Shown here piece by piece: positions 51,090 to 64,000 of a stretch of 64,000 nt of DNA. Source of the DNA: Calothrix anomala FACHB-343 (lineage in GTDB: Bacteria > Cyanobacteriota > Cyanobacteriia > Cyanobacteriales > Nostocaceae); the NCBI RefSeq assembly GCF_014696435.1, contig NZ_JACJQG010000035.1, positions 1-64,000 on the forward strand, in the 5' to 3' direction. Positions within the stretch are counted from its first letter, which is position 1. Every line of letters begins with the position of its first letter. The position numbers and the translations under genes are program-made. Under the pieces are notes generated by a model that searched no databases, was not told where the DNA came from, and saw only the letters and a list, made by a program, of their open reading frames with translations.

Positions 51090-51206
51090 GTTCTGTCCCC
51101 ATATCTTAGCCTTGTCATTATAGTTACGTTTCTGGGAAACCTAAAGGAACACAGATGAAGATAACTGCGATCGCCCTAAATCCGGCACAATAGAATCCCC
51201 AGAGAG

Positions 51207-51572
51207 TTAAAACTGGTCATCGCGGATCTGAAAATTAGACTCCTTACCAAGGAAGCCAGTTATTTGCTTAATCCAGTTTGCAAGGCGGTTGAATTTATGC
51301 TCAATCGCTTTATCTGTGGCGTTAAGCCGATAATCGAGAAATACTTTTTTCTCAGAATATTCAGTTAGATGGATATCTAATTTCTTCTCGGTATCGTGAA
51401 ACCGAATGGCCAGTTTATCTTCAAGCTGATCCATCGTTGTTAAAATGCTGGTTTCAACTTTGGTAATTTTGGCGTTGATATTTGACTCGACTTGAGAAAG
51501 TCGATAAATTGCGCCGATGATTAAAAGCAGTCCAGAGATAACAGTAATTGCATTATTAACATCAATTTTCAT
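51207..51572 (-). CDS. Single-helix coiled-coil protein of the fibre operon
   Basis: A 121-aa protein with one N-terminal membrane helix (about 6-23, AITVISGLLLIIGAIYRL) and then a long amphipathic coiled coil (about 25-95), with an NRLANWIKQITGFLG segment near the end. It is the last gene of the minus-strand operon. This layout is seen in phage holin-like or tail-anchoring proteins, but I cannot name it. The ATG at 51572 is chosen over a TTG three codons upstream; it overlaps the end of the preceding gene. Confidence 0.65.
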   Translation of the reverse strand: MKIDVNNAITVISGLLLIIGAIYRLSQVESNINAKITKVETSILTTMDQLEDKLAIRFHDTEKKLDIHLTEYSEKKVFLDYRLNATDKAIEHKFNRLANWIKQITGFLGKESNFQIRDDQF

Positions 51573-51906
51573 CTGCTTCAAAAGACAATATTTTTTTAAT
51601 GCTAATTGTTGTTCTTCCTAAATAAGTATTAGGAAAAAATTCTAATTTAAACCTACCCTTAGGCGGGAGTTCGATTTCTTGATTACTGAAGCCGACTATA
51701 TAAGAGCCAGAGATTACCCTACCCGGATAATCAATCAAAATGCGTTCTATACGTCCAGCACTTCTATAATTTCGGGTAGGATTTGCTTGAACGCTAATAA
51801 TTAAATTAGTATCGCTGCTATCAAATACGTAAGGAAAAAGAATAGACTGAATTTGTCTTAAATCCAGCCTATACTCATTCTTAAACACTAGCTGTGTTTC
51901 AATCAT
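51562..51906 (-). CDS. Hypothetical beta-rich protein of the fibre operon
   Basis: A 114-aa protein of unknown family. It is strand-rich (IETQLVFKNEYRLDLRQIQ, YPGRVISGSYIVGFSNQE) without signal or membrane segments. Its ATG starts at the last base of the preceding gene's stop (TGATG), so translation is coupled. By position it is a probable structural or adaptor component of the collagen-fibre cluster. Confidence 0.65.
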   Translation of the reverse strand: MIETQLVFKNEYRLDLRQIQSILFPYVFDSSDTNLIISVQANPTRNYRSAGRIERILIDYPGRVISGSYIVGFSNQEIELPPKGRFKLEFFPNTYLGRTTISIKKILSFEADEN

Positions 51907-52322
51907 CACTTTGTAACGAGTGAATATGTCCGTCCGTTGGGACTAACAAAACTAGTCGGCTTCTTACTAGCACCTTGTAAAAATTTCTTAATGTCAGAAA
52001 TATTAGCGCTAGCGGGAACTGGAACACTCAAGTATTTAACTGCAACGCCTTTTTTTGATGCAGCGCTGCTGTTAGTACCTGGTAGGGGCACTTTAATACG
52101 TTTTGCGCCAACAGAACCACGAACGGCGACTTTAACGTCTTTCTTACCCTTGCTAGTTTTGGACGGTTTACGGGTAATTGTCGCCTCTTGGACAATTTTA
52201 AATCCAAGTTTTTCGGCGACTGAGCGCAACATATAAACATACTGAGATTTTGCGCCAGCACCTTGTCCAGTACCAGATTTAAACAAAACAGTAGCCCTAG
52301 GGCCTAATTTTTTACCTGCCAT
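51906..52322 (-). CDS. Hypothetical basic protein of the fibre operon
   Basis: A 138-aa very basic protein (MAGKKLGPRATVLFKSGTGQ, then TRKPSKTSKGKKDVKVAVRG) with a Ser/Ala/Lys-rich C-terminal half ending SFVSPNGRTYSLVTK. I do not recognise it. It could bind nucleic acid or be a small virion protein. It is separated by 50 bp from the upstream gene and coupled to the downstream one. Confidence 0.65.
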   Translation of the reverse strand: MAGKKLGPRATVLFKSGTGQGAGAKSQYVYMLRSVAEKLGFKIVQEATITRKPSKTSKGKKDVKVAVRGSVGAKRIKVPLPGTNSSAASKKGVAVKYLSVPVPASANISDIKKFLQGASKKPTSFVSPNGRTYSLVTK

Positions 52323-52372
52323 CTAATTACCTACCTATCTATTAATAAGTTGTGGATAGTCATTAATTAGAT

Positions 52373-53407
52373 TTAGAGATAATCAATGGCATGAACAGTA
52401 ACATCACCATTGGTTGCGGCTGAGGTGGTAAATGGTAAGTTACCTGAAATAGTTGCACTTCCAGTTTCTAAATCAAACTGAATTTGAATATTATTAGGCT
52501 GATTTTCTGCTGGAGTTACCGCTTTTTCTGCTGCTGCAAGCAAGCTTGCCATTTCTAATAGTGCTTCTGGTAATGTATCTGAGGCTAAGTCACCACCACC
52601 ATTAGCAAAGGTTGAATAGGTAGAACCTAAATAATCAGATACAACAATATCAATTGCGCCACCAGCACCAATAGAAGTTGTTACAGGTAAAGTTGCTGCT
52701 ACAGCAATTGTTCCCGTATCAAAACTGACTGTAGTCGAAATATTACGTCTAGGTGTCAGTCCTGGGTTAGCACCATTGCGAGAATTTTCAGCAGCATCCA
52801 ACGCTCTACAAATTTCAAAAAAAGCAGCAGGTAATTGAGTAGATTTTAAAGTTCCGGAAGTACCTGGATCAAAAGTAGACATCTTGTCCTCGTCGTAATA
52901 AATGTAATAGCCGTACTTGTAATCAGTCATAGCCGGAAACATCCCCAAATTGGGGGGAATAAACTGAGTTACTGTCTTTGGGGTTAATGTCAAAGACAGC
53001 AACTCAGATGATGGAGTAGGAATTACAAGCCGATTATTAACAACAGTGGTACTAAAACTAGTTCGCTCCAAAACCGTATTTACTGCTGGTGGTAGTTCAT
53101 CAATAGCTGCACTCCAGTCAGTATTAATACTATTCCCTGATGGGGTAATTGCACTATCTCCATCATTACCACTATCAGTAATAGTATTGTCTCTATTTTG
53201 AATAATTGATTTTATTGAAGTAGATGGAAGAAATATATACCAGTTTCTCTTCCATTTAAAGGCTATTTTAATTCTCTTTTTTAAGAGCTTTTTAATTAAC
53301 TGTAACAGATACTTTTCTGAATAATGTATAAGTCTAGCAAACGTAATTAATTTAACGGCTAACCTACCATTAACAACAAAAACAGTATCAAGTTCTACTA
53401 TCCTCAT
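52373..53407 (-). CDS. Hypothetical virion-like protein with duplicated beta module
   Basis: A 344-aa protein. The N-terminal 85 residues are basic and helix-like (YLLQLIKKLLKKRIKIAF). The rest is strand-rich with two related modules of about 85 residues: one ending TTSIGAGGAIDIVVSDYL and one ending TTSAATNGDVTVHAIDYL, each preceded by a helix PxAxxExxxxLxAAE. Such repeated modules suggest a fibre or baseplate accessory protein; this is inference. The start overlaps the collagen-like gene stop by 4 bp (ATGA). Confidence 0.65.
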   Translation of the reverse strand: MRIVELDTVFVVNGRLAVKLITFARLIHYSEKYLLQLIKKLLKKRIKIAFKWKRNWYIFLPSTSIKSIIQNRDNTITDSGNDGDSAITPSGNSINTDWSAAIDELPPAVNTVLERTSFSTTVVNNRLVIPTPSSELLSLTLTPKTVTQFIPPNLGMFPAMTDYKYGYYIYYDEDKMSTFDPGTSGTLKSTQLPAAFFEICRALDAAENSRNGANPGLTPRRNISTTVSFDTGTIAVAATLPVTTSIGAGGAIDIVVSDYLGSTYSTFANGGGDLASDTLPEALLEMASLLAAAEKAVTPAENQPNNIQIQFDLETGSATISGNLPFTTSAATNGDVTVHAIDYL

Positions 53408-55764
53408 TTTTTATCTCTTAACTTTTTAGTCCAAGTTGGCACAGTATCTTTTTGACCTGTGGGGAAGAATTGACAGAGTGTAGGAGTTACTGAAACTTCT
53501 TTATAATTCTCATTAGAATTAGTAGTTTCTGGTGATTTAATACCTTTTAAATAATCCGGTTCTACATATAGCAATAGCGCTCTTAATACTCGTAAACACT
53601 CAGATTCAGTTTTACACCAGACAATAATTTTAGAATTATCATTTAATGTCTGAATACCTCTGTATCTACCTTTCTCATAGTCGGGGAAATTAGGACTGTG
53701 ATTTTGGTTATACCTGTAGTGGGGTAGTATCAAAGTCCATCGGCTTCTACCTATTTTTCCGTTGCCTAAATTCTCTGCATATTGAATAGCTAATTGAGGT
53801 CTTTGACGGGTGCGAGTCTGCCAATAATCAGGTACAGATAAATAAGCTTCAAATTCTTTATTTTTAGCTAAACAAAGTTCAGAATTAGCTTTAAATAATT
53901 CCTCATATTCGCCGATGATTGTTGACGAATTACTTGCTGTACCAGTCTTGTTAGCTATGGCTTTAACAGTTTCAGTAACTCTTTTAACTTCCCATTCACC
54001 TTGTTCATTCTTAGTACATTGGCAAACAGGAACTTGAACAGGAATAAATTTCACATCCGCATCCTCACCTGGTTTGCCATCAACACCATTACGTCCATCA
54101 ACGCCAACACCGTTACGCCCATCAACGCCATTACGTCCATCAACGCCATTACGTCCGTCAACGCCATTGCGTCCGTCAGTACCATTGCGTCCATTGATGC
54201 CATTGCGACCGTCAACACCATTTCTGCCATCAGTGCCATTGCGCCCGTCAGTACCGTTACGTCCGTCAGTGCCATTGCGGCCGTTAATGCCATTACGCCC
54301 ATTTGTCCCAGGTAAGCCGCGTAAACCGTTACGCCCGTCAACGCCATTTCTGCCATCGGTTCCATTGCGACCGTCAACACCATTTCTGCCATCGGTTCCA
54401 TTGCGACCGTCAACCCCGTTACGTCCGTCAATTCCGTTTCTGCCATCGGTTCCATTACGCCCATCAGTACCGTTACGCCCATTTGTCCCAGGTAAGCCGC
54501 GTAAACCGTTACGCCCGTCAACGCCATTTCTGCCATCGGTTCCATTGCGACCATCAATTCCGTTTCTTGGGATGGGATAAGGTTTTAAGGGAATAGCATC
54601 GCGACCGTTACGCCCATCAACGCCGTTGCGACCAGCCAAACCGTTACGTCCATCAACGCCGTTGCGACCAGCTAAACCGTTACGTCCATCTTTGCCATGT
54701 ATCACTATGGGCGCTGGCCCAGGAACCTTAATTTCTCTCATGATGGTTTCGACTTTGGTTACTTCAATGGTTACGGTTCTGCCGTCTTGACCATCAACGC
54801 CGTTTCTACCTTGCTGCCCATCCCGTCCGTTTAGTCCGTTGCGACCGTCAACGCCGTTTTTACCTTGCTGCCCATCCCGTCCATTTAGTCCGTTGCGACC
54901 GTCAACGCCGTTACGCCCGTCCCGTCCTGGTATTCCTTGTCTTCCGTCAACGCCATTTCTACCGTCACGTCCGGGTAATGCTGGTCTTGCGTCCCGTCCT
55001 GGTAGTCCTGGTTTGCCATCAATGCCATTTCTACCATCACGTCCGGGTAATGCTGGTCTGCCATCGCGTCCGGGTGGCGCTGCTCTACCATCACGTCCAG
55101 GTAAACCGCGCTGTCCATCTCGTCCGTTACGTCCGTCCCGTCCGGTTCTACCGTCACGTCCATCTCGTCCGGCTCTACCGTTAAGTCCATCTCGTCCGGC
55201 TCTACCCGCCGGGCCTGGTGTAGCTGCACGATTTCGTAAAAAGCCAACAGCCATTTGCAAACCATTAACAGTAGTTTCTAGTGACAATTGACCGGATTGG
55301 ATTTCTTGGACTACCTGTTTTAAAAACAAAATTGTGTCAATGATGCTCAGTAGCCTATCAATTTTGTCTAAAACTGAAGCTATGCGACCCAAGGCTGTCG
55401 ATGCTGTGGTTGCAGCACTAGCAGCAGTGGCAGCCGCAGTCCCAGCAGCAGCTAAGGCGGCGGCCGCAATTGCCGCAGCCGCCGCGGCCGCTGTGAGAAT
55501 CGCTTTGAGTTCTTTTAATTCGGCGCGAATGTTTTCGGCTTCACCCATTGCAGCAAGTGCTTGCCCAGAAGCGCGATAAGCTTCTGCTAGTGCTTGTTTT
55601 GCTGTTCTTCTGGCATATTCGTCTACATTTGAACTTTGATTTTTTAATGCAGATATTTCGGCTCTTAAAGCATTAATCTGTTGCTGTAAGTTGGAACAAC
55701 AGTCGCACTTGCCAGCACAATTTAAGGCTTGTTGCAAATTATTTATTGTGCTGGAAGCACTCAT
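53404..55764 (-). CDS. Collagen-like fibre protein
   Basis: A 786-aa protein with a Cys-containing N-terminus (CAGKCDCCSNLQQ), a long helical coiled-coil and Ala-rich stalk (about 25-150, with a run of Ala from about 92), and a collagen domain of Gly-X-Y triplets (about 185-575) dominated by GRNG, GRDG and VDG units, with a short non-collagen break at about 332-353. The folded C-terminal domain (about 580-786) has EAYLSVPDYWQTRTRQRPQL and WTLILPHYRYN. Trimeric fibres of this plan occur in phage tails and adhesins. The GRNGVDG units are nearly identical at DNA level. It sits at the centre of the operon. Confidence 0.85.
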   Translation of the reverse strand: MSASSTINNLQQALNCAGKCDCCSNLQQQINALRAEISALKNQSSNVDEYARRTAKQALAEAYRASGQALAAMGEAENIRAELKELKAILTAAAAAAAIAAAALAAAGTAAATAASAATTASTALGRIASVLDKIDRLLSIIDTILFLKQVVQEIQSGQLSLETTVNGLQMAVGFLRNRAATPGPAGRAGRDGLNGRAGRDGRDGRTGRDGRNGRDGQRGLPGRDGRAAPPGRDGRPALPGRDGRNGIDGKPGLPGRDARPALPGRDGRNGVDGRQGIPGRDGRNGVDGRNGLNGRDGQQGKNGVDGRNGLNGRDGQQGRNGVDGQDGRTVTIEVTKVETIMREIKVPGPAPIVIHGKDGRNGLAGRNGVDGRNGLAGRNGVDGRNGRDAIPLKPYPIPRNGIDGRNGTDGRNGVDGRNGLRGLPGTNGRNGTDGRNGTDGRNGIDGRNGVDGRNGTDGRNGVDGRNGTDGRNGVDGRNGLRGLPGTNGRNGINGRNGTDGRNGTDGRNGTDGRNGVDGRNGINGRNGTDGRNGVDGRNGVDGRNGVDGRNGVGVDGRNGVDGKPGEDADVKFIPVQVPVCQCTKNEQGEWEVKRVTETVKAIANKTGTASNSSTIIGEYEELFKANSELCLAKNKEFEAYLSVPDYWQTRTRQRPQLAIQYAENLGNGKIGRSRWTLILPHYRYNQNHSPNFPDYEKGRYRGIQTLNDNSKIIVWCKTESECLRVLRALLLYVEPDYLKGIKSPETTNSNENYKEVSVTPTLCQFFPTGQKDTVPTWTKKLRDKK

Positions 55765-55777
55765 TTAATTTATCCTG

Positions 55778-56200
55778 CTAACTACAATTTTTGTTTCTCA
55801 ATTGACTGGACAATCCTTCAATTTTTGACCATTCAGCATTGGAGATACACTTGCCATTGCATCCCGTACCGCAAGCAATTTCACATTCTGATAATGATTG
55901 GTAAATTCCCGGCGTATTATAGGTACTGCTGGGAATGCAAGCACCGTTAATACAATCATATTTAAAAGGATCTAAAATCCATGCAGCAGTACCGTATCTA
56001 AAACCCCATCCGGGATTAGGTTCAATGCCGTTTACAAAAACTTTGTAAGCAGTTTCTCCAGCGAAGAAAACCCAAGCTTGGTAGGTAACAATGTATTGTC
56101 CAGATGAATTAGGAGGTATGTCAGTACTTGGTAATTCTCTGAATTCATAAGTTCCTGTTGCCCCTACACCAACAATTCCTTCTAAATGCCCTATCGCCAT
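55778..56200 (-). CDS. Cys-rich-tailed hypothetical virion-like protein
   Basis: A 140-aa protein whose N-terminal 95 residues look like a beta-sandwich (VTYQAWVFFAGETAYKVFVN, GFRYGTAAWILDPF). The C-terminus is a Cys-rich knot with CINGACIPSSTYNTPGIY and CEIACGTGCNGKCIS. I associate this knot with phage and giant-virus structural proteins, from memory. It lies 2 bp after the preceding gene and 13 bp before the collagen-like gene. Confidence 0.65.
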   Translation of the reverse strand: MAIGHLEGIVGVGATGTYEFRELPSTDIPPNSSGQYIVTYQAWVFFAGETAYKVFVNGIEPNPGWGFRYGTAAWILDPFKYDCINGACIPSSTYNTPGIYQSLSECEIACGTGCNGKCISNAEWSKIEGLSSQLRNKNCS

Positions 56201-56202
56201 AT

Positions 56203-56532
56203 TTAGTAATCATCTGGATCAATTGTGCTTGTTGTATCTGGTTTTGCAGCGTTAATTGTTAGTTGGTCAACTCTGTATTGGTCGTTGTTTGTTCCCCTAA
56301 AAGCAAAACTTGGGAAGCCATTTGCAATATAAATACTCTGGTCTAAATTACTTTCAAAGTTTGTTTGTGATAAAGGTGTTTGCGCTTTTAATAAAATTGC
56401 TATTAGTAAACTTTCAGCAGTATTGTTACTTCCTGCTGTTAGTCCTGGTAGGTCTGCTTTTGTAATTGTGATGGTAGTGCTGGTTTGTGTGGCGTTAGCA
56501 CCGAAAACGTCTGTTAATGTTGGTTCTGCCAT
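56203..56532 (-). CDS. First gene of the collagen-fibre operon, hypothetical
   Basis: A 109-aa acidic protein starting MAEPTLTDVFGANATQTSTT, with a helical middle (AESLLIAILLKAQTPLSQ) and the pattern QSIYIANGFPSFAFRG. It has no signal or membrane segment and I do not recognise the family. It leads the minus-strand operon of seven genes; a long hairpin lies just upstream. Confidence 0.65.
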   Translation of the reverse strand: MAEPTLTDVFGANATQTSTTITITKADLPGLTAGSNNTAESLLIAILLKAQTPLSQTNFESNLDQSIYIANGFPSFAFRGTNNDQYRVDQLTINAAKPDTTSTIDPDDY

Positions 56533-56576
56533 TTTGATGATGATTGAAACTCTTTAAATTCTTTTATAAGAGCAAT

Positions 56577-56625
56577 CAAAAAAATAGTAAATCTACATCT
56601 TTTACCTAAAAGCTGTAGATTTACT
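56577..56625 (-). terminator. Long hairpin with U-tract upstream of fibre operon
   Basis: AGTAAATCTACA (56586-56597) and TGTAGATTTACT (56614-56625) pair perfectly, and inner CTTTT/AAAAG extends the stem after one mismatch. On the minus strand it is followed by about seven Ts (56578-56584). This is a strong terminator reading into the fibre operon from upstream, or an attenuator. Confidence 0.6.
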
Positions 56626-56734
56626 GAGGGGCTGTGATGCTTGCTGTGTCTATACTTGATGAATTATTAATTAATAGCTAATTAAGCTATATACCTGATT
56701 TTATTTGCTAAATAGTAAAAGTTGTATATGAGTT

Positions 56735-57310
56735 ATGAAAGTCAACGGTCATGGTCAAGCTAGTGTTTTTTCTAAAAAAGATTATGAAAAAATTTTGCTG
56801 CTGACTCCGGGCAAGAATCACCGGATGATTTTTCGGCTGTGTTATTGGACTGCTGCCAGGATGGGTGAGGTTTGCAAGCTGAAAACATCTGATGTTTATT
56901 TCCGTACTGGTAAACCGTTTGACAAGATTACTTATGAGAAAGGTTCTACTAAAACTAAGAAGACCCGACAAATACCAGTCAGTGAAACGCTTAAACAACA
57001 TTTACAAGCCTACTGGCAGGAAATACAGCCGGATTATGATGATTTTTTATTTCCTGGGTTGATTGAAGGTACTCATTTGCAGTTTCAGTCTGCTGATGAT
57101 GCTTTGCGGCGGGCGATTAAAAAAGCTGGGTTGGATGATATGGGTTACAGCACTCACAGTTTCCGGCGCTCTACTGCTACTCAGTTATCTCGCAGTGGAA
57201 TAGCTTTACCTGTGATTAAACAAATTACGGGGCATTCTAGTTTACAAAGTCTTCAACTGTACATTGACACTACTGAAGACCAAGTTTTGGGGGCGATCGC
57301 AACTCTATGA
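56735..57310 (+). CDS. Catalytic-domain tyrosine recombinase (integrase)
   Basis: A 191-aa site-specific recombinase made of the catalytic domain only. The active-site set is complete: Arg42 in AARMGEV, Lys at about 73-76 in KGSTKTKKTR, His141 and Arg144 in THSFRRS, His167 in TGHSSL and nucleophile Tyr176 in QLYIDTT. It lacks the N-terminal core-binding domain of XerC/D or lambda Int, but short integrases starting MKVNGxGQA appear to be a normal cyanobacterial type, so this is probably not truncation. It is probably the recombinase that moved or moves this island. It overlaps the next small gene (ATGA). Confidence 0.88.
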   Translation: MKVNGHGQASVFSKKDYEKILLLTPGKNHRMIFRLCYWTAARMGEVCKLKTSDVYFRTGKPFDKITYEKGSTKTKKTRQIPVSETLKQHLQAYWQEIQPDYDDFLFPGLIEGTHLQFQSADDALRRAIKKAGLDDMGYSTHSFRRSTATQLSRSGIALPVIKQITGHSSLQSLQLYIDTTEDQVLGAIATL

Positions 57311-57480
57311 TCAACAAAACCGATTTGATACTTTCCCTTGGTTACCTAATTGGCCAAATACTCAACGGCGATATGGACAACCCCGAAACCCTAGCAAAAT
57401 CTCTAGAAGGTATCGCTGACCGGGTTTGGGATGAATATGAAGCTGCATTACTTCCGCCGTCGCTTAGGATTGACCCATGA
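57307..57480 (+). CDS. 57-aa protein coupled to the integrase
   Basis: A short acidic protein reading MINKTDLILSLGYLIGQILN, then a D/E-rich stretch with PETLAKSLEGIADRVWDEYE and a proline-rich end. The ATG overlaps the integrase stop in ATGA, so it is translationally coupled. Possible partner or excision-control protein; the family is unknown. Nothing convincing is seen from 57481 to 57627 except GGGCATTGGG repeat units and two GCGATCGC-like sites. Confidence 0.6.
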   Translation: MINKTDLILSLGYLIGQILNGDMDNPETLAKSLEGIADRVWDEYEAALLPPSLRIDP

Positions 57481-57627
57481 GTTTTAACTCATTGTTGGTT
57501 ATTCACAAACGCGATCGCACTTCTACACGCCCTGATTCCAAAGAAACGCGATCGCATTTTTTATGGGCATGGGGCATTGGGCATGGGGTGGTAAAATTGC
57601 CGTGTCACATGGCAGTTGAGGCTGGTT

Positions 57628-57915
57628 ATGGGTGGAAGAACTAGCACCAGTTGGCCAACTGGTAGCAGTTGGCATCATGGAAAAACCAAAACAATTCGCG
57701 TCCCGATTGTTCTGGAACAGCCGGTTATGGATTATGCCAGGACTGTAGATTTAGGCGTTGACCCAGTAGAGCAATTAATAACCGAGTTTTTAAAAATTAA
57801 GCGTCGCCAACACAAGCGCCGGATTAATCATGAAAGTGAAATGACTGCTGGTGTACGCTGGGAAATTTTCAACGAGTTCCGGCGCTGGGTGGAGTGCGAT
57901 CGCAAAAGGCGTTAG
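57628..57915 (+). CDS. Small basic protein with TKTIRVP motif
   Basis: A 95-aa protein starting MGGRTSTSWPTGSSWHHGKT. The segment KTIRVPIVLEQPVMDYARTVD resembles N-terminal parts of cyanobacterial plasmid and phage proteins with a ribbon-helix-helix-like start, so DNA binding is likely. The basic tail is IKRRQHKRRINHE. The ATG at 57628 has GAGG about eight bases upstream; the TTG at 57616 is less likely. It ends convergent with the zinc-ribbon gene, overlapping by 4 bp. Confidence 0.65.
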   Translation: MGGRTSTSWPTGSSWHHGKTKTIRVPIVLEQPVMDYARTVDLGVDPVEQLITEFLKIKRRQHKRRINHESEMTAGVRWEIFNEFRRWVECDRKRR

Positions 57916-58115
57916 TCCATTGAGACGTAGAAAACTCCTGAACCCCCACAATCGCTACATTCTTCTCTATATTCGTTTCCTTCCCATTCTTCCACCACTT
58001 CACCGCCACCACCACAGGTTGGGCATTCTATTTCTTCAAAAATCAGATCAATTTCATGCTCCTGAACTTGTCCGGTTTTATATACTTGGGTTTTTTTCTT
58101 GGGTTTGTTATTCAT
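57912..58115 (-). CDS. Small zinc-ribbon protein
   Basis: A 67-aa protein with two CxxCxG-type knuckles, CPTCGGGGEV and CSDCGGSGVF, like half of the DnaJ zinc domain. It probably binds one zinc. Similar small proteins occur in phage early regions. Its start lies 8 bp inside the end of the upstream gene, so the two are coupled. Confidence 0.7.
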   Translation of the reverse strand: MNNKPKKKTQVYKTGQVQEHEIDLIFEEIECPTCGGGGEVVEEWEGNEYREECSDCGGSGVFYVSMD

Positions 58116-58881
58116 TGGTTCCGCTCCATGACTGAATTAGATGCTTAATCTCCCCCGGTGAGTTACCAGATGCGATCGCACTTTCAACCTCAACTTTGCG
58201 ATTTTGAGCCAAGTGCGATCGCGTATTCCCGCCGGGTATATGAATATGCTTAATCTTCCGGCTTTGCTTATAGCAGTAGCGATAGTAAGAATTGGCTTTA
58301 CGAGTTGATGGTCTGTACTCTTCCACCCATTGAGTGTGTTCTGGAACGCCAGTAGTAGATCCAAATCCTGGGGTTTTATGTTCTGGAACAGCATTTTTGG
58401 TATCACGTTCCAGAACATCGAATTGGCGATGCCTTCGGCGGGCTACGCCTACGCCCCCGATTTTCTCCAAGTATTCAACTATGGGTAAGACTTCCTGTGT
58501 ATCCTGTTCCAGAACGGTGAAACAGCCATGAGGAACATATAACCAGCCATTGCGGCTGACTGCAATGTTGCCATTGGCTCTAGGGTCTACCCAGGTTACC
58601 TGACAAATCAAGTCTTTTTCAGATTTAAACTGATAGTCTTTTTTGAAACTGCCCTTGGTCGCGGCTTCGCATTTTTTCATCCAGTCAGGCGAAAGCTGCA
58701 CCCAATCCCCCGGCTTAATAAAATGCTCCTGGGCAAGTGGTAATTCAGGAGCATCAGAGAAGGAATTATCTACCTTATGACTATTTTTGTGGTCAACTTT
58801 ACCACAGTCAGCCGTCGCCACAGTTTCCAGTGCAAATAATGTCAGTTGGCAGGCTGTACCTGGATCGCCTGATTTCTTCAT
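58108..58881 (-). CDS. Hypothetical cyanophage/plasmid-type protein with inserted repeat
   Basis: A 257-aa protein. An N-terminal variable part precedes a KPGDWVQLSPDWMKKCEAAT domain (about 55-120) and a C-terminal module KANSYYRYCYKQSRKIKHIH followed by IPGGNTRSHLAQNRKVEVESAI, which I recall from cyanobacterial mobile elements. Between them the codons for GGVGVARRRHRQF come from a dispersed genomic repeat (GCGTAGGCGTAGCCCGCC type) that inserted without breaking the frame. Function unknown; possibly DNA binding, given the basic C-terminus. Next upstream on the same strand is the XRE regulator. Confidence 0.65.
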   Translation of the reverse strand: MKKSGDPGTACQLTLFALETVATADCGKVDHKNSHKVDNSFSDAPELPLAQEHFIKPGDWVQLSPDWMKKCEAATKGSFKKDYQFKSEKDLICQVTWVDPRANGNIAVSRNGWLYVPHGCFTVLEQDTQEVLPIVEYLEKIGGVGVARRRHRQFDVLERDTKNAVPEHKTPGFGSTTGVPEHTQWVEEYRPSTRKANSYYRYCYKQSRKIKHIHIPGGNTRSHLAQNRKVEVESAIASGNSPGEIKHLIQSWSGTNE

Positions 58882-58925
58882 AATGAGATTAGGTATTTAC
58901 GGCCGCCAACAAGGCGGCTCATTTT

Positions 58926-59216
58926 CTACTCAGGTTGTGGTAATCGACCACGTGGGCCAAAGTCATCAGGTAAATCCTGAATAGTTCTACCTTTTAACTT
59001 CAGTAAACGATCAAGAGCTTTCATCTGGGCAATTGTGAACGTTGGCACAGTATCACCAGCTTCCCATCTACTGATAGTTCTGGCTGTTGTGCCAATAGAA
59101 CGCCCAAATTCCTCTTGAGACATATCTAGTTCACTTCTTAGGGCTTTCAAGGGTGACTCACCCCCATCTTGTTCTCTGCTCACTCTTTTCTTTACCATAA
59201 TAACCCGCTTAGACAT
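58926..59216 (-). CDS. XRE-family transcriptional regulator
   Basis: A 96-aa repressor-like protein with a basic N-terminus (MSKRVIMVKKRVSRE) and a Cro/C1-type helix-turn-helix (about 27-80) with LRSELDMSQEEFGRSIGTTA and the recognition helix TISRWEAGD. The ATG at 59216 lies inside a palindrome AGACATTATGTCT; an alternative ATG at 59198 would shorten it by six residues. The upstream frame to 59345 is not family-like. The palindrome at its own start and a second copy upstream suggest autoregulation. Confidence 0.85.
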   Translation of the reverse strand: MSKRVIMVKKRVSREQDGGESPLKALRSELDMSQEEFGRSIGTTARTISRWEAGDTVPTFTIAQMKALDRLLKLKGRTIQDLPDDFGPRGRLPQPE

Positions 59217-59265
59217 TATGTCTAGACGGGTTGACAAGTAGCACCCCATACAGACATAATGTCTA
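59210..59265. promoter_or_regulatory. Two palindromic operators and divergent promoter region
   Basis: TAGACATTATGTCTA (59210-59224) and AGACATAATGTCT (59252-59264) are the same palindrome, about 41 bp apart. Between them TTGACA (59231) and a CATAAT 18 bp downstream make a rightward promoter whose -10 overlaps the second operator. A bound XRE protein could block both its own expression and the rightward operon, as in phage immunity regions. Confidence 0.65.
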
Positions 59266-59773
59266 GTCATAGACAACAAAAACACCAGCCAAAACGATTG
59301 GCTCGGTAAGAAACAGTATTTTGGCTGGTTCCAAAAGTGTCTCACCTTGAAAGTGAAACCAAAACCAGGAAAGTAGCACTTTATGCAATAGCCGTTGAAA
59401 ACCGATGAAAGGTGATTCAGGCTACCAGTGTCCTGTATGGTGTTTGGCTGAATTTGGGAGAGATGACTTGGTGTTGTCTTATATAAGTCGTGGCTTAGTC
59501 AAAGCTGATGACGTGCATTTGTATTGCAGCTGCAATCTGTAAAAGACCTTAGTAGGGCATTCCATAGAGCCAAGGGCTAATTGCTGACCTGGTGACAGGG
59601 TGGACTGTGGATATAAGACCTGGGTGAAAATCCCGTAGAGGCTGGCGTGTAGGTAATGGCTCACGCACAGATGCACTCATGAAATTGCTAATTACCGTGT
59701 AGTTAGTGATGGATCGCAGTTTTAAAGACAAAAGCGCGCAAACCCCCGCCAGCGCTGGCATTTTATTACTACT
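59266..59773 (+). other. 508-bp leader without a gene, ending in GCCAGCGCTGGC hairpin
   Basis: No convincing protein is encoded on either strand. The region is not repeat-derived and has moderate GC. It ends in the perfect 12-bp palindrome GCCAGCGCTGGC (59748-59759) followed by ATTTTATT, which may terminate a leader RNA just before the first small gene. It may hold an untranslated RNA, but I cannot assign a family. Confidence 0.4.
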
Positions 59774-60136
59774 ATGACCAAAACAAAGTATGTAACCCGA
59801 AAAAAACGCATTCGCCAACTAGAAGCAGAAATTGAGCAACTCAAGACCCAGGTGAAAATCCTCACTGAGATGCTGGACAGAACAAACGCTATGCTTTTGC
59901 GATCGCGTCCCAGATTAGCGCGTGCAGTTGAGCGAGATATGCATGAATATCTTCAACATGATGAAAATTTACTCCCATCAGAAATGCCACAAGAACTGAT
60001 GGGGAAAATCACCAGAAAGAAAATTACCCCGCAGCGCCCGCCGCGAAATTTACCACTTGCACCCCGTGCAGACTTGGTAATCAACAGAAATTCTCATGGG
60101 CAACAAATCGCCACACACCGCCCATATCAAGCTTAG
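59774..60136 (+). CDS. Coiled-coil basic protein, first gene of the right operon
   Basis: A 120-aa protein with a basic start (TKTKYVTRKKRIRQ), a leucine-zipper-like coiled coil (about 14-45, LEAEIEQLKTQVKILTEML) and a basic, proline-rich tail (KITRKKITPQRPPRNLP). It probably forms a DNA-binding dimer, but the family is unknown. A stem AGCCAGCA/TGCTGGCT with Ts (60219-60243) after it may terminate part of the transcription. Confidence 0.65.
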   Translation: MTKTKYVTRKKRIRQLEAEIEQLKTQVKILTEMLDRTNAMLLRSRPRLARAVERDMHEYLQHDENLLPSEMPQELMGKITRKKITPQRPPRNLPLAPRADLVINRNSHGQQIATHRPYQA

Positions 60137-60218
60137 TCGTCTCGTTAGGAGGTACGTATAACGAAAAACACATGATTTTACGTCCGTCACGTATTTACAA
60201 CAAAACCATGATTACTCA

Positions 60219-60250
60219 CAGCCAGCAGCACTGGTTGCTGGCTTTTCTGT
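60219..60250 (+). terminator. Terminator-like hairpin between small genes
   Basis: AGCCAGCA, loop, then TGCTGGCT and TTTTCTGTG lie between the coiled-coil gene and the 62-aa gene. Confidence 0.55.
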
Positions 60251-60283
60251 GACCAATAACCAACACCCAATGACGAACAACCT

Positions 60284-60472
60284 ATGAATCAACTACAAAA
60301 ACAAAATTTACCCTGGCACATTTACAGACAAGAAAACCCATCTGCTAAATGGGTTTTTCATGAAGGATTTGGAACTCGTGGCGATGCAGAACATTACTTA
60401 AACTTTATGGGTAAATATGTACCCCAACTGCAACTTAAACTAGTTTTCGCTCACGCTCAAGTTGAAGTGTAA
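60284..60472 (+). CDS. 62-aa hypothetical protein
   Basis: A small protein reading MNQLQKQNLPWHIYRQENPS and containing WVFHEGFGTRGDAEHYL. The pattern with Trp, Tyr and a GDAE turn looks like a small folded domain of phage early-gene type. Family not recognised. It is 3 bp before the next gene, in a packed rightward run. Confidence 0.6.
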   Translation: MNQLQKQNLPWHIYRQENPSAKWVFHEGFGTRGDAEHYLNFMGKYVPQLQLKLVFAHAQVEV

Positions 60473-60475
60473 CTC

Positions 60476-60775
60476 ATGGAAATCAAAACTATCAGTTATC
60501 AGCGCGTCTTAAACCTGGATAACTACGAAAGTAAACGCTTAGAAATGTTTGCAGAACTGCATCCAGGTGATGATATAGACTCTGAAACTTCCGCTCTTAT
60601 GGAAACAGTAGAGCGAAAAATCAGAGAGAATGCTGCTAAAAAATATGAGGATGAAATTAACATCCTTCAGCAACAATTAAGCGACCTGAAACAGGAGATA
60701 AACCAGCAGATACACGAAGGTATAAGTACATCTCAAAATCAACAAACATCTACCGAACCAGAAGATGCTTGGTAA
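60476..60775 (+). CDS. Hypothetical phage-type protein with coiled coil
   Basis: A 99-aa acidic protein. The N-terminus MEIKTISYQRVLNLDNYESK matches a pattern I recall from many phage genomes (YQRxxNLxxYE followed by an acidic stretch); function is unknown. The second half is a coiled coil (about 50-80, DEINILQQQLSDLKQEI). It is tightly spaced with both neighbours. Confidence 0.65.
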   Translation: MEIKTISYQRVLNLDNYESKRLEMFAELHPGDDIDSETSALMETVERKIRENAAKKYEDEINILQQQLSDLKQEINQQIHEGISTSQNQQTSTEPEDAW

Positions 60776-60777
60776 TT

Positions 60778-61011
60778 ATGAGTGATGAATCTGTTACTTT
60801 ACCAAAAGATTTGTATGTGTTGAACCTCCTAGGGATGGGAGTAGCAATACAATTTCTCGCCAACATAACAGGCGAAGAAATTGAAGCTTGGAAGCAACAT
60901 ATAGGGGCAATAGCTACTGAGCAATACAAAAGCTTATCCCCTCTAGAAATTCAGCGAATAATTGATAATGTGAAAGTTCCTAGAACCGCTTGCCAAAATG
61001 ATAAATTCTGA
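60778..61011 (+). CDS. 77-aa hypothetical protein
   Basis: A small protein starting MSDESVTLPKDLYVLNLLGM, with a helical hydrophobic middle and EIEAWKQHIGAIATEQY. There is no signal peptide. It follows the previous stop by 2 bp and overlaps the next start by 14 bp. Family unknown. Confidence 0.6.
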   Translation: MSDESVTLPKDLYVLNLLGMGVAIQFLANITGEEIEAWKQHIGAIATEQYKSLSPLEIQRIIDNVKVPRTACQNDKF

Positions 61012-61231
61012 CATTCCGAATTTCACCCCAGACCCAGCTTGGGATTACTACATCATCTGGCATAGATGCCTAAGAGCTAAAGCCAAAATTGAACTAGCTT
61101 TAGCAGCATTAAGTAAACAAGAGGAGTTAAATCTTGATACTAATGAATCTTGCGATGACTTAATCCTTGAAGCTATTGCCGAATTAAATCAAATTGATTT
61201 TGAAAAAGAAGAGGATGAAGATGAAGATTAA
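60998..61231 (+). CDS. 77-aa acidic helical protein
   Basis: A protein with PDPAWDYYIIWHRCLRAKAK, helices and a strongly acidic end (EKEEDEDED). It overlaps both neighbours (14 bp and 11 bp). DNA-mimic or chaperone-like roles are possible for such acidic small proteins, but nothing specific is shown. Confidence 0.6.
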   Translation: MINSDIPNFTPDPAWDYYIIWHRCLRAKAKIELALAALSKQEELNLDTNESCDDLILEAIAELNQIDFEKEEDEDED

Positions 61232-61628
61232 AAGATTTCATGCACATTTTCTTATCTCAATTGGTAGTTACAGCAATGAAAAACACGGATGGACTGTTGA
61301 GTTAGAAGATAATGAAACTGAAGAAGAAGTTGCAAATGAGTTGAGAGAACGAGCTATAAAGATTGTCGGTAAACCCGCTCATGAACTTTATGAAGAGAGA
61401 AGTAAAATCGCTCGTGAAGTCGCACAACTGGAAAACAAATTAAACAAATTGCGCCAAGAATGGGACGCTACCGCAGCATTCCTAAAAGCACAAGGATTAA
61501 ACCCCGATGCACCCTCAATGCCTCAATTTCGTAATCTTCTAACTGCTGTAACAGTTGAATCAGAAGTTGTGACCACTGATGATGACGAAGATGATGATTA
61601 CGACGAAGATGACGAAGATGATTATTAA
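61221..61628 (+). CDS. Hypothetical protein with polyacidic tail
   Basis: A 135-aa protein. The first 60 residues (FHAHFLISIGSYSNEKHGWT, then VELEDNETEEEVANELRE) resemble the family pattern seen in the 60476 gene, followed by a coiled coil (about 62-92, REVAQLENKLNKLRQEW) and an Asp/Glu-only tail. The ATG at 61221 has GAGG six bases upstream. Last small gene before the structured RNA and the IS110-type recombinase. Confidence 0.65.
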   Translation: MKIKRFHAHFLISIGSYSNEKHGWTVELEDNETEEEVANELRERAIKIVGKPAHELYEERSKIAREVAQLENKLNKLRQEWDATAAFLKAQGLNPDAPSMPQFRNLLTAVTVESEVVTTDDDEDDDYDEDDEDDY

Positions 61629-61639
61629 ATCCGCCTGAT

Positions 61640-61740
61640 GATGGCTACTTGACTCAGTAGCCGAAACGGTAGCCAAAAATGCTACCGTCGTGGGTTGAGT
61701 CGCGCAATTCAACTCGCCTCTGGTTTTCCAGAGGGAAATA
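61640..61740 (+). ncRNA. Candidate bridge RNA: four consecutive hairpins before the IS110 gene
   Basis: Four stems lie in about 90 nt: GGCTACT/AGTAGCC (61643-61662), ACGGTAGC/GCTACCGT (61666-61688), GTTGA/TCAAC (61694-61713) and CCTCTGG/CCAGAGG (61717-61734). The first loop (TGACTC) can pair with GAGTC at 61697-61701. IS110-group elements encode a bridge RNA in the non-coding end before the recombinase, and this RNA sits 187 bp before its ATG. The match to the bridge-RNA fold is inferred, not shown. The rest of 61741-61926 has no gene. Confidence 0.45.
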
Positions 61741-61926
61741 AAACAGCAGCACGGATTTTTCAATAGAAATGACCTTAAAGGTTTCGCATTTTCATGAATC
61801 CACTGCTGTTAATTATTTCCACTGTGCTTGAGTTTAAAAGTGAATTGTTTACACTAATTTGGGTGATTCGTGACTCATTTTAGCACAGTTTTTGCTGCAA
61901 AATTTCACCAATTACTGAACCTTGAA

Positions 61927-63312
61927 ATGAGAATATTAGGCTTAGACGTATGTAAAAATAGCGTCGTCGGTTGGTTGATTAATACTGAAGAAAATCTTCC
62001 AAAAAACTTTCGAGAATACTTCAGAAAGCATCGCCGCCCAAAGGATAATGACCCATTAACTTTTAAAGCTCACATCGCGGGTATTAACGCACTGTTAGAA
62101 TTAAAACCAGATGCAATTATCCTTGAACCTACTGGTATACATTACAGTTGGATTTGGGCGCATATTTGCAGCATGGAAAATATAGAAGTTCGCTGGGTTG
62201 GTCATGCTGAGGTTAAACATTTCAGGAAGCAAAATAAACTACCTGATAAGAACGACCAAGCAGATGCAGCCGCATTAGCTTTGTATGCTTTCATACACTG
62301 GCATAATGATGAGTTCTTCTTACATTTCAATGCTGGAAATGTGGCAAGGTTAAGAGAATTGTGGTTGCAATTGCAGTCTATTAACCGCATACAATCACCA
62401 CCAATTAACCGCATTCGCCAACAGTTAGCTAAAGAATTTCCCGAAGCTGCTTTATCTGCTACTAAACCTGGTGATGATGGTATGGTTCCTTTGTGGGCTT
62501 GGCTAGCCGGACGAGAACGGAACACAGTGCGTAAATCCAGTTATTACGACCGGCTTTATGCTAAATCCATCGCTCCAAAGTACAGAGTCGGAATTTCTGA
62601 CTTTACCCGTACCCTGGCGAATTTACTATGTGATTTACGGGACTGGGAAAACAAGATGGTAGCTGAAATTCTGGAACTGCTCGATGCTCCTGAATTTATG
62701 CCCTACCGCAAAGTTATGACCCAGTTCGGAATTGGCGATCGCCAACAAGCGCTGTTTATTTCCCAAATTTACCCGATTACTAAATTTGAATCATTGGGCA
62801 GATTCAAGCGGCGGCTGGGCATGGCCAAAGATGAGGAGTCATCTGGTGATAAGGAAGCTTACAAAACTGGTGGGTCAAGATTTTGTCGCTCCCAGCTGTA
62901 CTTGTGGGTATTTAACCGCATTGCTCCACACCACGCCAGACCCAAAAACGAAACTGGCCAAAAGCTGGGTGATTTTTACGATCAGCGTAAATCCCAGTTT
63001 CAAGACAACCCAGAACTGTGGAAACAAAAAGCACTTAGCAGAACCCAGAAAAAAGCAATGGATGAACTTAGGCGATCGCTCAAAGAATCCCTACTGCCCA
63101 TGCTTCCCAAAGACCAACAACCACAGATTGAAGCAATTCTCAATTTGACACTGCAAAACATGCAGTTGTCACTTGACCAATCGCTTGCGGGTAAAACTTC
63201 TTCTGTAAAGGAAAAGGAAATTAAACGCGGTTTCGGTAATTTAATCATCAGTCAAACTGCTGCTTATGGTCTGAGGCTTATGTTTAAAGAACTTAAGCGC
63301 GCTATTGACTAA
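61927..63312 (+). CDS. IS110-family recombinase/transposase
   Basis: A 461-aa DEDD recombinase. The RuvC-like domain has the first Asp in RILGLDVCKNSVVGWL, Glu in AIILEPTGIHYSW and the Asp pair in DKNDQADAAALALYA. A middle helical region is followed by the Tnp domain with QFGIGDRQQALFISQIYPIT and LGMAKDEESSGDKEAYKTGG, where Ser is the expected nucleophile. It is longer than many IS110 proteins, with an insertion in the middle and a C-terminal helical extension (about 400-461). The ATG at 61927 gives the usual start; the GTG at 61870 adds 19 residues. It could be a mobile element or an island-specific recombinase. Confidence 0.82.
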   Translation: MRILGLDVCKNSVVGWLINTEENLPKNFREYFRKHRRPKDNDPLTFKAHIAGINALLELKPDAIILEPTGIHYSWIWAHICSMENIEVRWVGHAEVKHFRKQNKLPDKNDQADAAALALYAFIHWHNDEFFLHFNAGNVARLRELWLQLQSINRIQSPPINRIRQQLAKEFPEAALSATKPGDDGMVPLWAWLAGRERNTVRKSSYYDRLYAKSIAPKYRVGISDFTRTLANLLCDLRDWENKMVAEILELLDAPEFMPYRKVMTQFGIGDRQQALFISQIYPITKFESLGRFKRRLGMAKDEESSGDKEAYKTGGSRFCRSQLYLWVFNRIAPHHARPKNETGQKLGDFYDQRKSQFQDNPELWKQKALSRTQKKAMDELRRSLKESLLPMLPKDQQPQIEAILNLTLQNMQLSLDQSLAGKTSSVKEKEIKRGFGNLIISQTAAYGLRLMFKELKRAID

Positions 63313-63316
63313 CAAT

Positions 63317-63343
63317 TAACTCCCTTGACAGGGAGTTAAAAAA
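63317..63343 (+). terminator. Hairpin after the recombinase gene
   Basis: TTAACTCCC-TTGACA-GGGAGTTAA is a 9-bp stem just after the stop, followed by AAAAATC. It could be a terminator or part of the element's right end. Confidence 0.6.
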
Positions 63344-63392
63344 TCATTAGTTCTTAGGCTAAAGTGAAAATGCTCACGACGATCTAGTTAAT

Positions 63393-64000
63393 TTGGCTAA
63401 ACAACGACTCGATACACTTTTAGTAGAAAGAAATTTATGTACTTCCCGCGCTTTAGCACAGCGACTCATTCAGGCGGGGGAAGTCAGCGTGAATCAGCAG
63501 GTTGTAGATAAACCGGGTACAGAAGTTGATATTACTGCTGATATTCAGATTAAAGAGCGATCGCGTTTTGTTTCAAGAGGCGGCGAAAAACTGGCGAAAG
63601 CTTTAGAAAACTTTGCAATTCCTGTAGAAGGACGCATTTGTCTAGATGGGGGGATTTCTACAGGTGGCTTTACCGATTGTTTGCTGCAAGCTGGAGCTAA
63701 ACAAGTTTACGGCATTGATGTGGGTTACGGACAAGTTGACTGGCGCTTACGCAATGACAAGCGGGTAATTTTGCGGGAACGTACCAACTTACGCCAACTA
63801 CAACCACAGCAATTGTATGGCGAAAACGCTGCCATTCCCGATTTGGCAGTGGTTGATGTTTCGTTTATTTCCTTAACGAAAATCTTGCCAGCTTTGTGGC
63901 AACTCACCCAAGCGCCACGGGAAGCAGTATTATTAATCAAGCCACAATTTGAAGTTGGTAAATCCCGCGTTGGTAAAAAAGGCGTGGTGCGCGACCCAAA
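63393..64000 (+). CDS. tlyA: TlyA-family rRNA methyltransferase, 5' part
   Basis: The gene runs off the right edge, with 202 codons visible. The protein reads LAKQRLDTLLVERNLCTSRA (S4 RNA-binding domain, about 1-60, with VSRGGEKLAKAL), then an FtsJ-like methyltransferase domain with ICLDGGISTGGFTDCLLQAGA, VYGIDVGYGQVDWRLRND and the catalytic-type DVSFISLTKILP and LLIKPQFEVGK. It methylates rRNA 2'-hydroxyls in known systems. The start is TTG: the in-frame region upstream reaches a stop at 63360 without ATG or GTG. It lies directly after the accessory island. Confidence 0.9.
   Translation, partial: MAKQRLDTLLVERNLCTSRALAQRLIQAGEVSVNQQVVDKPGTEVDITADIQIKERSRFVSRGGEKLAKALENFAIPVEGRICLDGGISTGGFTDCLLQAGAKQVYGIDVGYGQVDWRLRNDKRVILRERTNLRQLQPQQLYGENAAIPDLAVVDVSFISLTKILPALWQLTQAPREAVLLIKPQFEVGKSRVGKKGVVRDP

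Follow-up and report, generated by a model that had tools for sequence, protein, structure and literature searches.

An IS110-type recombinase and a putative bridge RNA as the probable integrase of a 12.2-kb island in Calothrix anomala FACHB-343

The 64,000-nucleotide stretch analysed here (the window: Calothrix anomala FACHB-343, assembly GCF_014696435.1, contig NZ_JACJQG010000035.1, positions 1 to 64,000) carries, at the right end of a mobile island, an IS110-type recombinase gene preceded by a highly structured RNA. Comparison of sequences indicates that the RNA (61631–61888) is very probably a bridge RNA and the recombinase (61927–63312) its IS110-type partner, and that together they serve as the integrase of the 12.2-kb island. 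The RNA and the gene are made up of the following features, in window positions.

61631–61888, + strand: putative bridge RNA, its extent estimated from folding and from comparison of homologous loci
61643–61662, + strand: hairpin 1, whose loop GACTC (61651–61655) pairs with GAGTC (61697–61701)
61667–61687, + strand: hairpin 2, where covariation is strongest
61692–61715, + strand: hairpin 3, from folding
61717–61734, + strand: hairpin 4, from folding
61735–61820, + strand: predicted target-binding stem-loop (the fifth), from folding and covariation
61761–61768, + strand: left target guide (LTG), CAATAGAA, identical to the host bases that precede the left end
61786–61793, + strand: right target guide (RTG), GCATTTTC, reverse complement of the core GAA plus AATGC
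61822–61888, + strand: predicted donor-binding stem-loop (the sixth), from folding and homologous loci
61836–61844, + strand: left donor guide, AAAAGTGAA, in the same sense as the right end CTAAAGTGAA
61861–61869, + strand: right donor guide, GGGTGATTC, which would pair with GAATC(-)CCC of the core and left end, one base being bulged
61927–63312, + strand: IS110-type DEDD/Ser recombinase, 461 amino acids (aa), from profile searches and alignment
63316–63339, + strand: terminator-like hairpin 3' of the recombinase gene; a consensus scan shows it on the − strand only

The recombinase frame is intact, from the ATG at 61927 to the end of the stop codon at 63312. Its product matches the NCBIfam profile NF051857 (IS110 transposase) with E = 2.7e-134 and 448 bits (cut-off 180) and Pfam PF02371 with 25.1 bits, above the cut-off of 21.3; PF01548 scores 28.0 bits, just under its cut-off of 29, and NF033542 ("IS110 family RNA-guided transposase") reaches E = 1e-21, under its cut-off. 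Residues D7, E67, D110, D113 and S305/S306, which are taken to be catalytic by analogy with IS621, are invariant across 14 aligned proteins, the window's included. Locus L046, whose recombinase frame contains a stop, was excluded from this alignment; its RNA and ends are counted below. A PDB sequence search returned no match, and IMG/VR (protein search) and the phage collection yielded no relative; a pattern scan of viral contigs gave 40 stretches. Recombinase and RNA belong to the IS110/bridge-RNA kind.

In its own genome the recombinase is single-copy (one locus at E <= 0.01), so the ends of the element had to come from relatives. Within the family, 86 of 218 genomes contain a match at E <= 1e-10. 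The close clade comprises 15 full-length loci of at least 67% identity, the window (WIN) among them; from the weaker matches 17 loci on long contigs were taken, and 16 were kept after omission of L100, whose frame is truncated. Fragments (G084, G127, G157, G043 and others) are omitted from the counts. The 15 close loci have in common a block that runs from about −300 to near the gene end, and most pairs diverge to the left of the RNA and to the right of a short motif, CTARAGTGAA. The exceptions are the two pairs with shared insertion sites (WIN/L034 and L045/L046), and hundreds of upstream bases are also common to certain pairs, such as the window or L034 with L038, L041 and L042. Two further groups of recombinases exist in the family, of about 395 and about 460 aa and about 40% and about 31% identical to that of the window, respectively; in both, the layout is that of the window's clade. 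Class-wide, 38 of 388 genomes match at E <= 1e-20, family members among them.

The region 61629–61926 folds with −96.1 kcal/mol, compared with a mean of −67.7 (standard deviation 4.9) for shuffled sequences (z = −5.84; 0 of 200 shuffles equal). Covariation was tested on 15 homologous RNAs with a 40-pair structure derived partly from the consensus fold of the same alignment: 94.5% of cells are paired, and two-sided changes are found in 71 cells. Shuffles average 22.5 such cells, none of 500 reaching that number, and slid controls give 8–18. Such changes occur in 19 of the 40 named pairs, and the measure of "further pair types" gave no excess in this set (37, with 36.7 in shuffles). The loop motifs GACNC and GN'GTC are both present in 29 of the 31 loci examined, and their N position forms a Watson-Crick pair in 27 of these 29 (16 T-A, 7 C-G, 4 A-T), the remaining two being one G-U and one mismatch. 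A search of the window against Rfam returned no match. The 5' edge of the RNA is a conserved GCCTGAYGA, at 61631–61641, and TGA motifs adjoin the guides; by eye, we take this edge and these motifs to resemble those of box C/D RNAs. This likeness agrees with the connection that PMC12045711 makes between IS110 and box C/D RNAs.

Much of this arrangement had been anticipated by a sequence-only reading of the window, which described four stems packed into 61643–61734, a loop able to pair with GAGTC in the same RNA, an intact DEDD/Ser recombinase and a hairpin behind it. The four stems were recovered as hairpins 1 to 4, with two longer stem-loops after them, the loop pairing covaries, the gene is intact and of the IS110 type, and the terminator-like hairpin is present. 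The fold check proposed in that reading gave the z-score above, and the search it recommended for other copies in related genomes defined both the element ends and the target. Its suggestion that the RNA is a bridge RNA gains support from the covariation of the RNA, from ends that include the hairpin region and from loops that match the target flanks and the element end. The uninterrupted site described below supports the further idea, hinted at in that reading, that the pair might serve the whole island. The remark that the protein is larger than usual corresponds to a length at the upper edge of the 300–460 aa given in PMC11208160.

The limits of the island come from L054, a locus of the same genus with flanks 97% identical to those of the window, in which window position 51195 runs directly into 63366/63369. 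Because of this uninterrupted site, the mobile unit is taken to be 51196–63368, with the following parts.

51196–63368, no strand: the whole island, 12,173 bp, delimited by the uninterrupted site in L054
51188–51195, + strand: left target flank on the host side, CAATAGAA, identical to the left target guide of the RNA and uninterrupted in L054
51196–51201, + strand: left end (LE), TCCCCA, the same in 25 delimited islands
63359–63368, + strand: right end (RE), CTAAAGTGAA, from comparison of loci
63369–63373, + strand: right target flank, AATGC, 24 bp ahead of the start of an open reading frame (ORF) at 63393

The left junction reads cacaatagaa/TCCCCAGAG and the right junction CTAAAGTGAA/aatgctcacg, and the uninterrupted site is CACAATAG-AA-AATGCTCACG. 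The ORF that starts at 63393 is presumably TlyA-like, by eye only. The insert is also absent from five more genomes of the same genus (L055–L059), two of which (L055 and L059) have the first two bases of the right flank changed, GTTGC instead of AATGC. At the same site, genome G015 (L060) has a different sequence and G014 (L034) has the island; a second site is occupied in G008 and G006 and uninterrupted in G005, G007 and G004. CTARAGTGAA is the right end of the element; it lies farther from the gene in L035, L039 and L043, and the DNA that follows it is the same only in the shared-site pairs. A search that took the left end to be the donor loop's exact reverse complement gave no useful hit, and it was the uninterrupted site that gave the true left end. 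The 25 delimited islands, chosen through their IS110 recombinase, measure 9.2–18.4 kb (median 14.2 kb), the right ends of L039 and L112 in these lengths resting on a 3-of-5 match.

Two segments of the fifth stem-loop vary among loci; in the window they are CAATAGAA and GCATTTTC. On the left side, a locus's own guide (5 nt) together with GAATCCCCA was found upstream in 25 of 26 loci, against 0 of 646 for the guides of other loci and 1 of 26 in a reverse-strand control. In the close clade, all 10 loci with enough upstream sequence have an exact left-end match, 7.8–16.9 kb upstream, and of 16 loci of the two further recombinase groups, extended by 20 kb upstream, 15 have a GAA/TCCCCA left end after their own guide. 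The predicted guide was also found at two left ends situated on other contigs, for L040 (in G104) and L047 (in G139). On the right side, the own guide matches at 5/5 in 24 of 31 loci and at 4/5 or better in 27, and the guides of other loci match at 5/5 in 0 of 922 comparisons and at 4/5 in 42 (each score, own or cross, being that of the best-matching end-like motif inside 2 kb). The right end of L035 is located about 1.5 kb farther on, where its own guide matches. A looser end pattern applied to 30 short-flank loci yielded 18 right-guide matches, with L023 outside the expected RNA position. A similar island is borne by the plasmid CP150887.1 of an Aphanizomenonaceae strain, where the guide matches, judged by eye, follow the same rule; its annotation lists hypothetical proteins, an integrase, an HTH regulator and a transposase. 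The close relatives L041 and L042, whose DNA is 90.7% identical over the block, differ in their guides, which points to a rapid turnover of guide sequences.

The sixth stem-loop contains TTTAA(A/G)AGTGAATTG, and the A or G of the donor guide is identical to that of the right end in all 15 close-clade loci (11 A, 4 G). At the level of sequence, the structure of the RNA, the ends of the island, the uninterrupted sites, the matching of guides to targets and the covariation between left donor guide and right end are established. We infer that the RNA is expressed and forms a complex with the recombinase, which would catalyse integration by way of a circular intermediate. The donor loop would pair with the RE-LE junction of the element (CTAAAGTGAA/TCCCCA), and the target loop with the host site CAATAG-AA-AATGC, its left guide on the bottom strand and its right guide on the top strand. 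The RNA would then bridge the joined island ends and the target, the recombinase would exchange both at the shared GAA core, and the island would enter without any duplication beyond this core. Bridging and exchange at GAA are proposed because of the guide matches found here and of what is established for IS621 according to PMC11208160. For the donor CTAAAGTGAA-TCCCCA, the candidate target site would be CAATAGAAAATGC.

The remainder of the island contains the following genes.

52373–53407, − strand: left-arm protein of 344 aa, with relatives in 6 of the 25 islands, the window's counted
53404–55764, − strand: collagen-repeat protein of 786 aa, with matches to tail-fibre families via its repeats; its cluster is present in 10 of the 25 islands
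56735–57310, + strand: small tyrosine recombinase of 191 aa, catalytic domain only, with a homologue in 25 of 25 delimited islands
58108–58881, − strand: protein of 257 aa, whose cluster is present in 23 of the 25 islands
58926–59345, − strand: helix-turn-helix (HTH) regulator of the XRE type, from a profile match

In all 25 delimited islands the IS110 recombinase is at or near the right end and the small tyrosine recombinase in the interior, and the left arm consists of leftward genes and one large protein, which belongs to the window's collagen-repeat cluster in 10 of them. The sequence-only reading had spoken of a run of phage-type genes, which is weakly borne out: among the island proteins scanned, clear matches are limited to the two recombinases (IS110 and tyrosine), the collagen-repeat protein and the HTH regulator. 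No terminase, portal, capsid, relaxase, type IV secretion system (T4SS) or conjugation genes were recognised among the island proteins scanned, some small ORFs being unscanned, and none of the proteins scanned was a Tn7-like protein or a Cas effector. L045 and L046 have a common insertion site, with islands of 12.1 and 9.2 kb and collagen-type ORFs of 778 and 271 aa, respectively. The small tyrosine recombinase is also present in the island of genome G160 and has no homologue in six related islands that have a larger tyrosine integrase; it may be a dedicated partner of the IS110 module.

These six islands were reached through the joined form of the ends. Of the 218 family genomes, 35 contain the joined-end sequence TARAGTGAATCCCCA, 54 times in all, and the reversed pattern gives four matches. 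Longer DNA was examined for 16 of the 54 RE-LE joints, and seven places were extended. The DNA beside four of the 16 joints has no left-arm gene, and one of these joints is a spacer in an array resembling clustered regularly interspaced short palindromic repeats (CRISPR). Six of the seven extended places have left-arm genes, but the IS110 gene and the small tyrosine recombinase are absent within about 20 kb; the seventh, in G160, belongs to an IS110 island. G157, G154 and G151 each have, 17–20 kb from the joint, a homologue of one and the same larger tyrosine integrase (that of G157 just under the Pfam cut-off, 25.7 against 27.1), and in G076, G073 and G124 the corresponding gene is a tyrosine integrase with an arm-binding domain. 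G157 is the only one of the six to be delimited: its repeated copies show that the island extends 549 bp past the joint, which is therefore internal there. The contig G157:C1 holds three copies of this tyrosine-integrase island (L213–L215), two of them in tandem 19.6 kb apart; the stretches compared are 99.8–99.9% identical, and the island ends just past its integrase gene.

Taking RE-LE joints as circular or tandem forms was an interpretation that was dropped, many of them lying in islands with a tyrosine integrase. Since the joint stands beside the left arm of such islands, a joined RE-LE, as in L038, is no proof of a circle. In L038 (G104:C90, 8,811 bp) the right end is joined to a left end and both contig ends lie in island-type genes; the contig may represent a circle or a tandem, or the joint may be internal. 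On G065:C10, two copies of the recombinase (L223–L224) are 15.4 kb apart and one right end is followed directly by TCCCCA, in an apparent tandem; two CRISPR-like repeats are located just inside that left end. Spacers that span the joined RE/LE core TAGAGTGAATCCCCA were found in two CRISPR-like arrays with different 37-nt repeats, at L216:8084–8117 (G151) and L171:1495–1530 (G069). These two spacers suggest that hosts have sampled the joined form of the elements.

Judged from sequence, islands of this kind occur with either integration module, IS110 or tyrosine integrase. A broader reading, on which our confidence is evenly balanced, would see here cyanobacterial mobile islands, virus- or satellite-like and with mostly unannotated genes, whose integration module would be either a tyrosine integrase or an IS110 recombinase guided by a bridge RNA, the two being interchangeable. 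The IS110 module would make the insertion of a 9–18 kb multigene element retargetable, and it would recombine at the conserved TAGAGTGAA/TCCCCA, a sequence that stands uninterrupted beside the left arm of the tyrosine-integrase islands and is sampled by CRISPR-like arrays. Confidence in this two-module reading was slightly lowered, G157 being the only case in which the joint demonstrably lies inside the island.

Several observations weigh against the RNA and the IS110 recombinase being the integrase of the island. A left end with the own guide was not found for L036, L038 and L044, and the left-end match of L108 is missing. Right matches are poor in L038 (0/5), L039 (3/5), L044 (2/5) and L112 (3/5) and reach 4/5 in L041, L042 and L097; outside the family, the right guide matches in 6 of 15 loci (L131, L132, L135, L136, L142 and L149), a count that comes from flanks no longer than about 1.5 kb and has no shuffle control beside it. 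The loci are also non-independent, as WIN/L034 and L045/L046 share sites and guides and L038/L041 share guides. In addition, pairing of the right donor guide GGGTGATTC with the core and left end requires one bulged base, a consensus scan of 61100–63400 found no promoter match ahead of the RNA, and the joined-end sequence occurs beside the left arm of islands that have another integrase. The mismatch of L038 can be explained by the left end that comes after its right end, and the other poorly matching ends may have decayed or moved.

The presence of the small tyrosine recombinase in 25 of 25 delimited islands leaves sole IS110 responsibility unproven, and it lends some weight to an alternative in which integration of the island is the work of this enzyme (56735–57310), with the IS110/RNA pair riding along as a passenger insertion sequence (IS) near the right end, as does the larger tyrosine integrase of the six related islands without IS110. 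This alternative is nevertheless very unlikely. Both island ends obey the RNA guides (25 of 26 on the left, 24 of 31 on the right) and the uninterrupted site coincides with these ends. The small tyrosine recombinase consists of a catalytic domain only, lies mid-island and was not found in the six larger-integrase islands; IS110 is present in all 25 islands, though it also served to select them. A simple 1.7-kb IS110 element (61631–63368) sitting in an older island, its agreement with the far end being accidental, would account for the block common to most pairs of the 15 close loci, which is the 1.7-kb RNA and recombinase with a left edge near 61631. It is most improbable, however, given that the left guide is unmatched left of 61631 and exact at 51188–51195, that the uninterrupted site joins 51195 to 63366, and that the same kind of left end is found 7.8–16.9 kb upstream in 25 of 26 loci. 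Finally, the RNA could have no guide function and instead act on the recombinase gene as a structured leader or regulator, in agreement with its position directly upstream of the gene and its high degree of structure, but two variable segments of it track both flanks of each insertion site while the remainder is conserved, and we give this explanation hardly any credence. The preferred interpretation is thus that of a bridge RNA and its IS110 partner integrating the whole island.

Prophages, phage satellites and integrative and conjugative elements (ICEs) with tyrosine integrases have an integrase at one end, divergent operons and an HTH regulator. The island resembles them in its end-located integrase, divergent operons, HTH regulator and tail-fibre-like repeats, and six related islands have such an integrase; unlike them, it has IS110 and the RNA in the integrase position, and packaging and conjugation genes are unmatched among the proteins scanned. 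RNA-guided insertion of large cargo is known in cyanobacteria from CRISPR-associated transposons, but here a bridge RNA would encode both target and donor, and Tn7-like and Cas proteins are unmatched among the proteins scanned. A minimal IS110 insertion sequence consists of a recombinase gene and non-coding ends, about 1–2 kb in all, a size that the delimited islands, at 9.2–18.4 kb, exceed.

The likeness to IS621 and other IS110 elements, as PMC11208160 describes them, lies in the DEDD/Ser recombinase, the non-coding RNA upstream of the gene and the short shared core, as well as in the order of the loops (the first for the target, the second for the donor) and in the pairing of the 5' side with the bottom strand and the 3' side with the top strand. 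The elements in that account are minimal and autonomous; their RNA sits in the left end, and a promoter is restored when RE and LE are joined. In the present case 10.4 kb separate the left end from the RNA, and RNA and recombinase stand at the right end of a multigene island. Because of this distance, it is unlikely that a promoter re-formed at the RE-LE joint drives the RNA. The RNA differs as well, with about 258 nt by our estimate instead of the 177 nt given in PMC11208160, four 5' hairpins before the two loops and a covarying loop pairing. The same paper sought element ends with 1,000 bp added on each side of the gene, a search expected to miss islands like these. IS1111 elements, which according to PMC11208160 mostly carry their RNA in the right end, and the seekRNAs of the IS1111 group (PMC11187229) are similar as RNA-guided DEDD transposases and differ from the present system, whose RNA is upstream of the gene. 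The present system departs from that kind in the large island, the RNA far from the left end, the four hairpins before the loops and a bridge-RNA system in the place of the integrase. A literature search, limited to the top-listed papers and with preprints and most subscription papers outside its scope, found no description of such IS110 islands.

Bridge RNAs have been described for minimal insertion sequences, and in these cyanobacteria that machinery apparently inserts multigene islands of 9–18 kb at changing sites. Bridge recombinases are being engineered for large multigene insertion. The window's clade and the two further groups, about 30–41% identical, offer paired guides and natural targets as test cases for the insertion of large cargo. 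The joint that they have in common with their tyrosine-integrase relatives would provide a handle for studying how islands of this family change their integration module.

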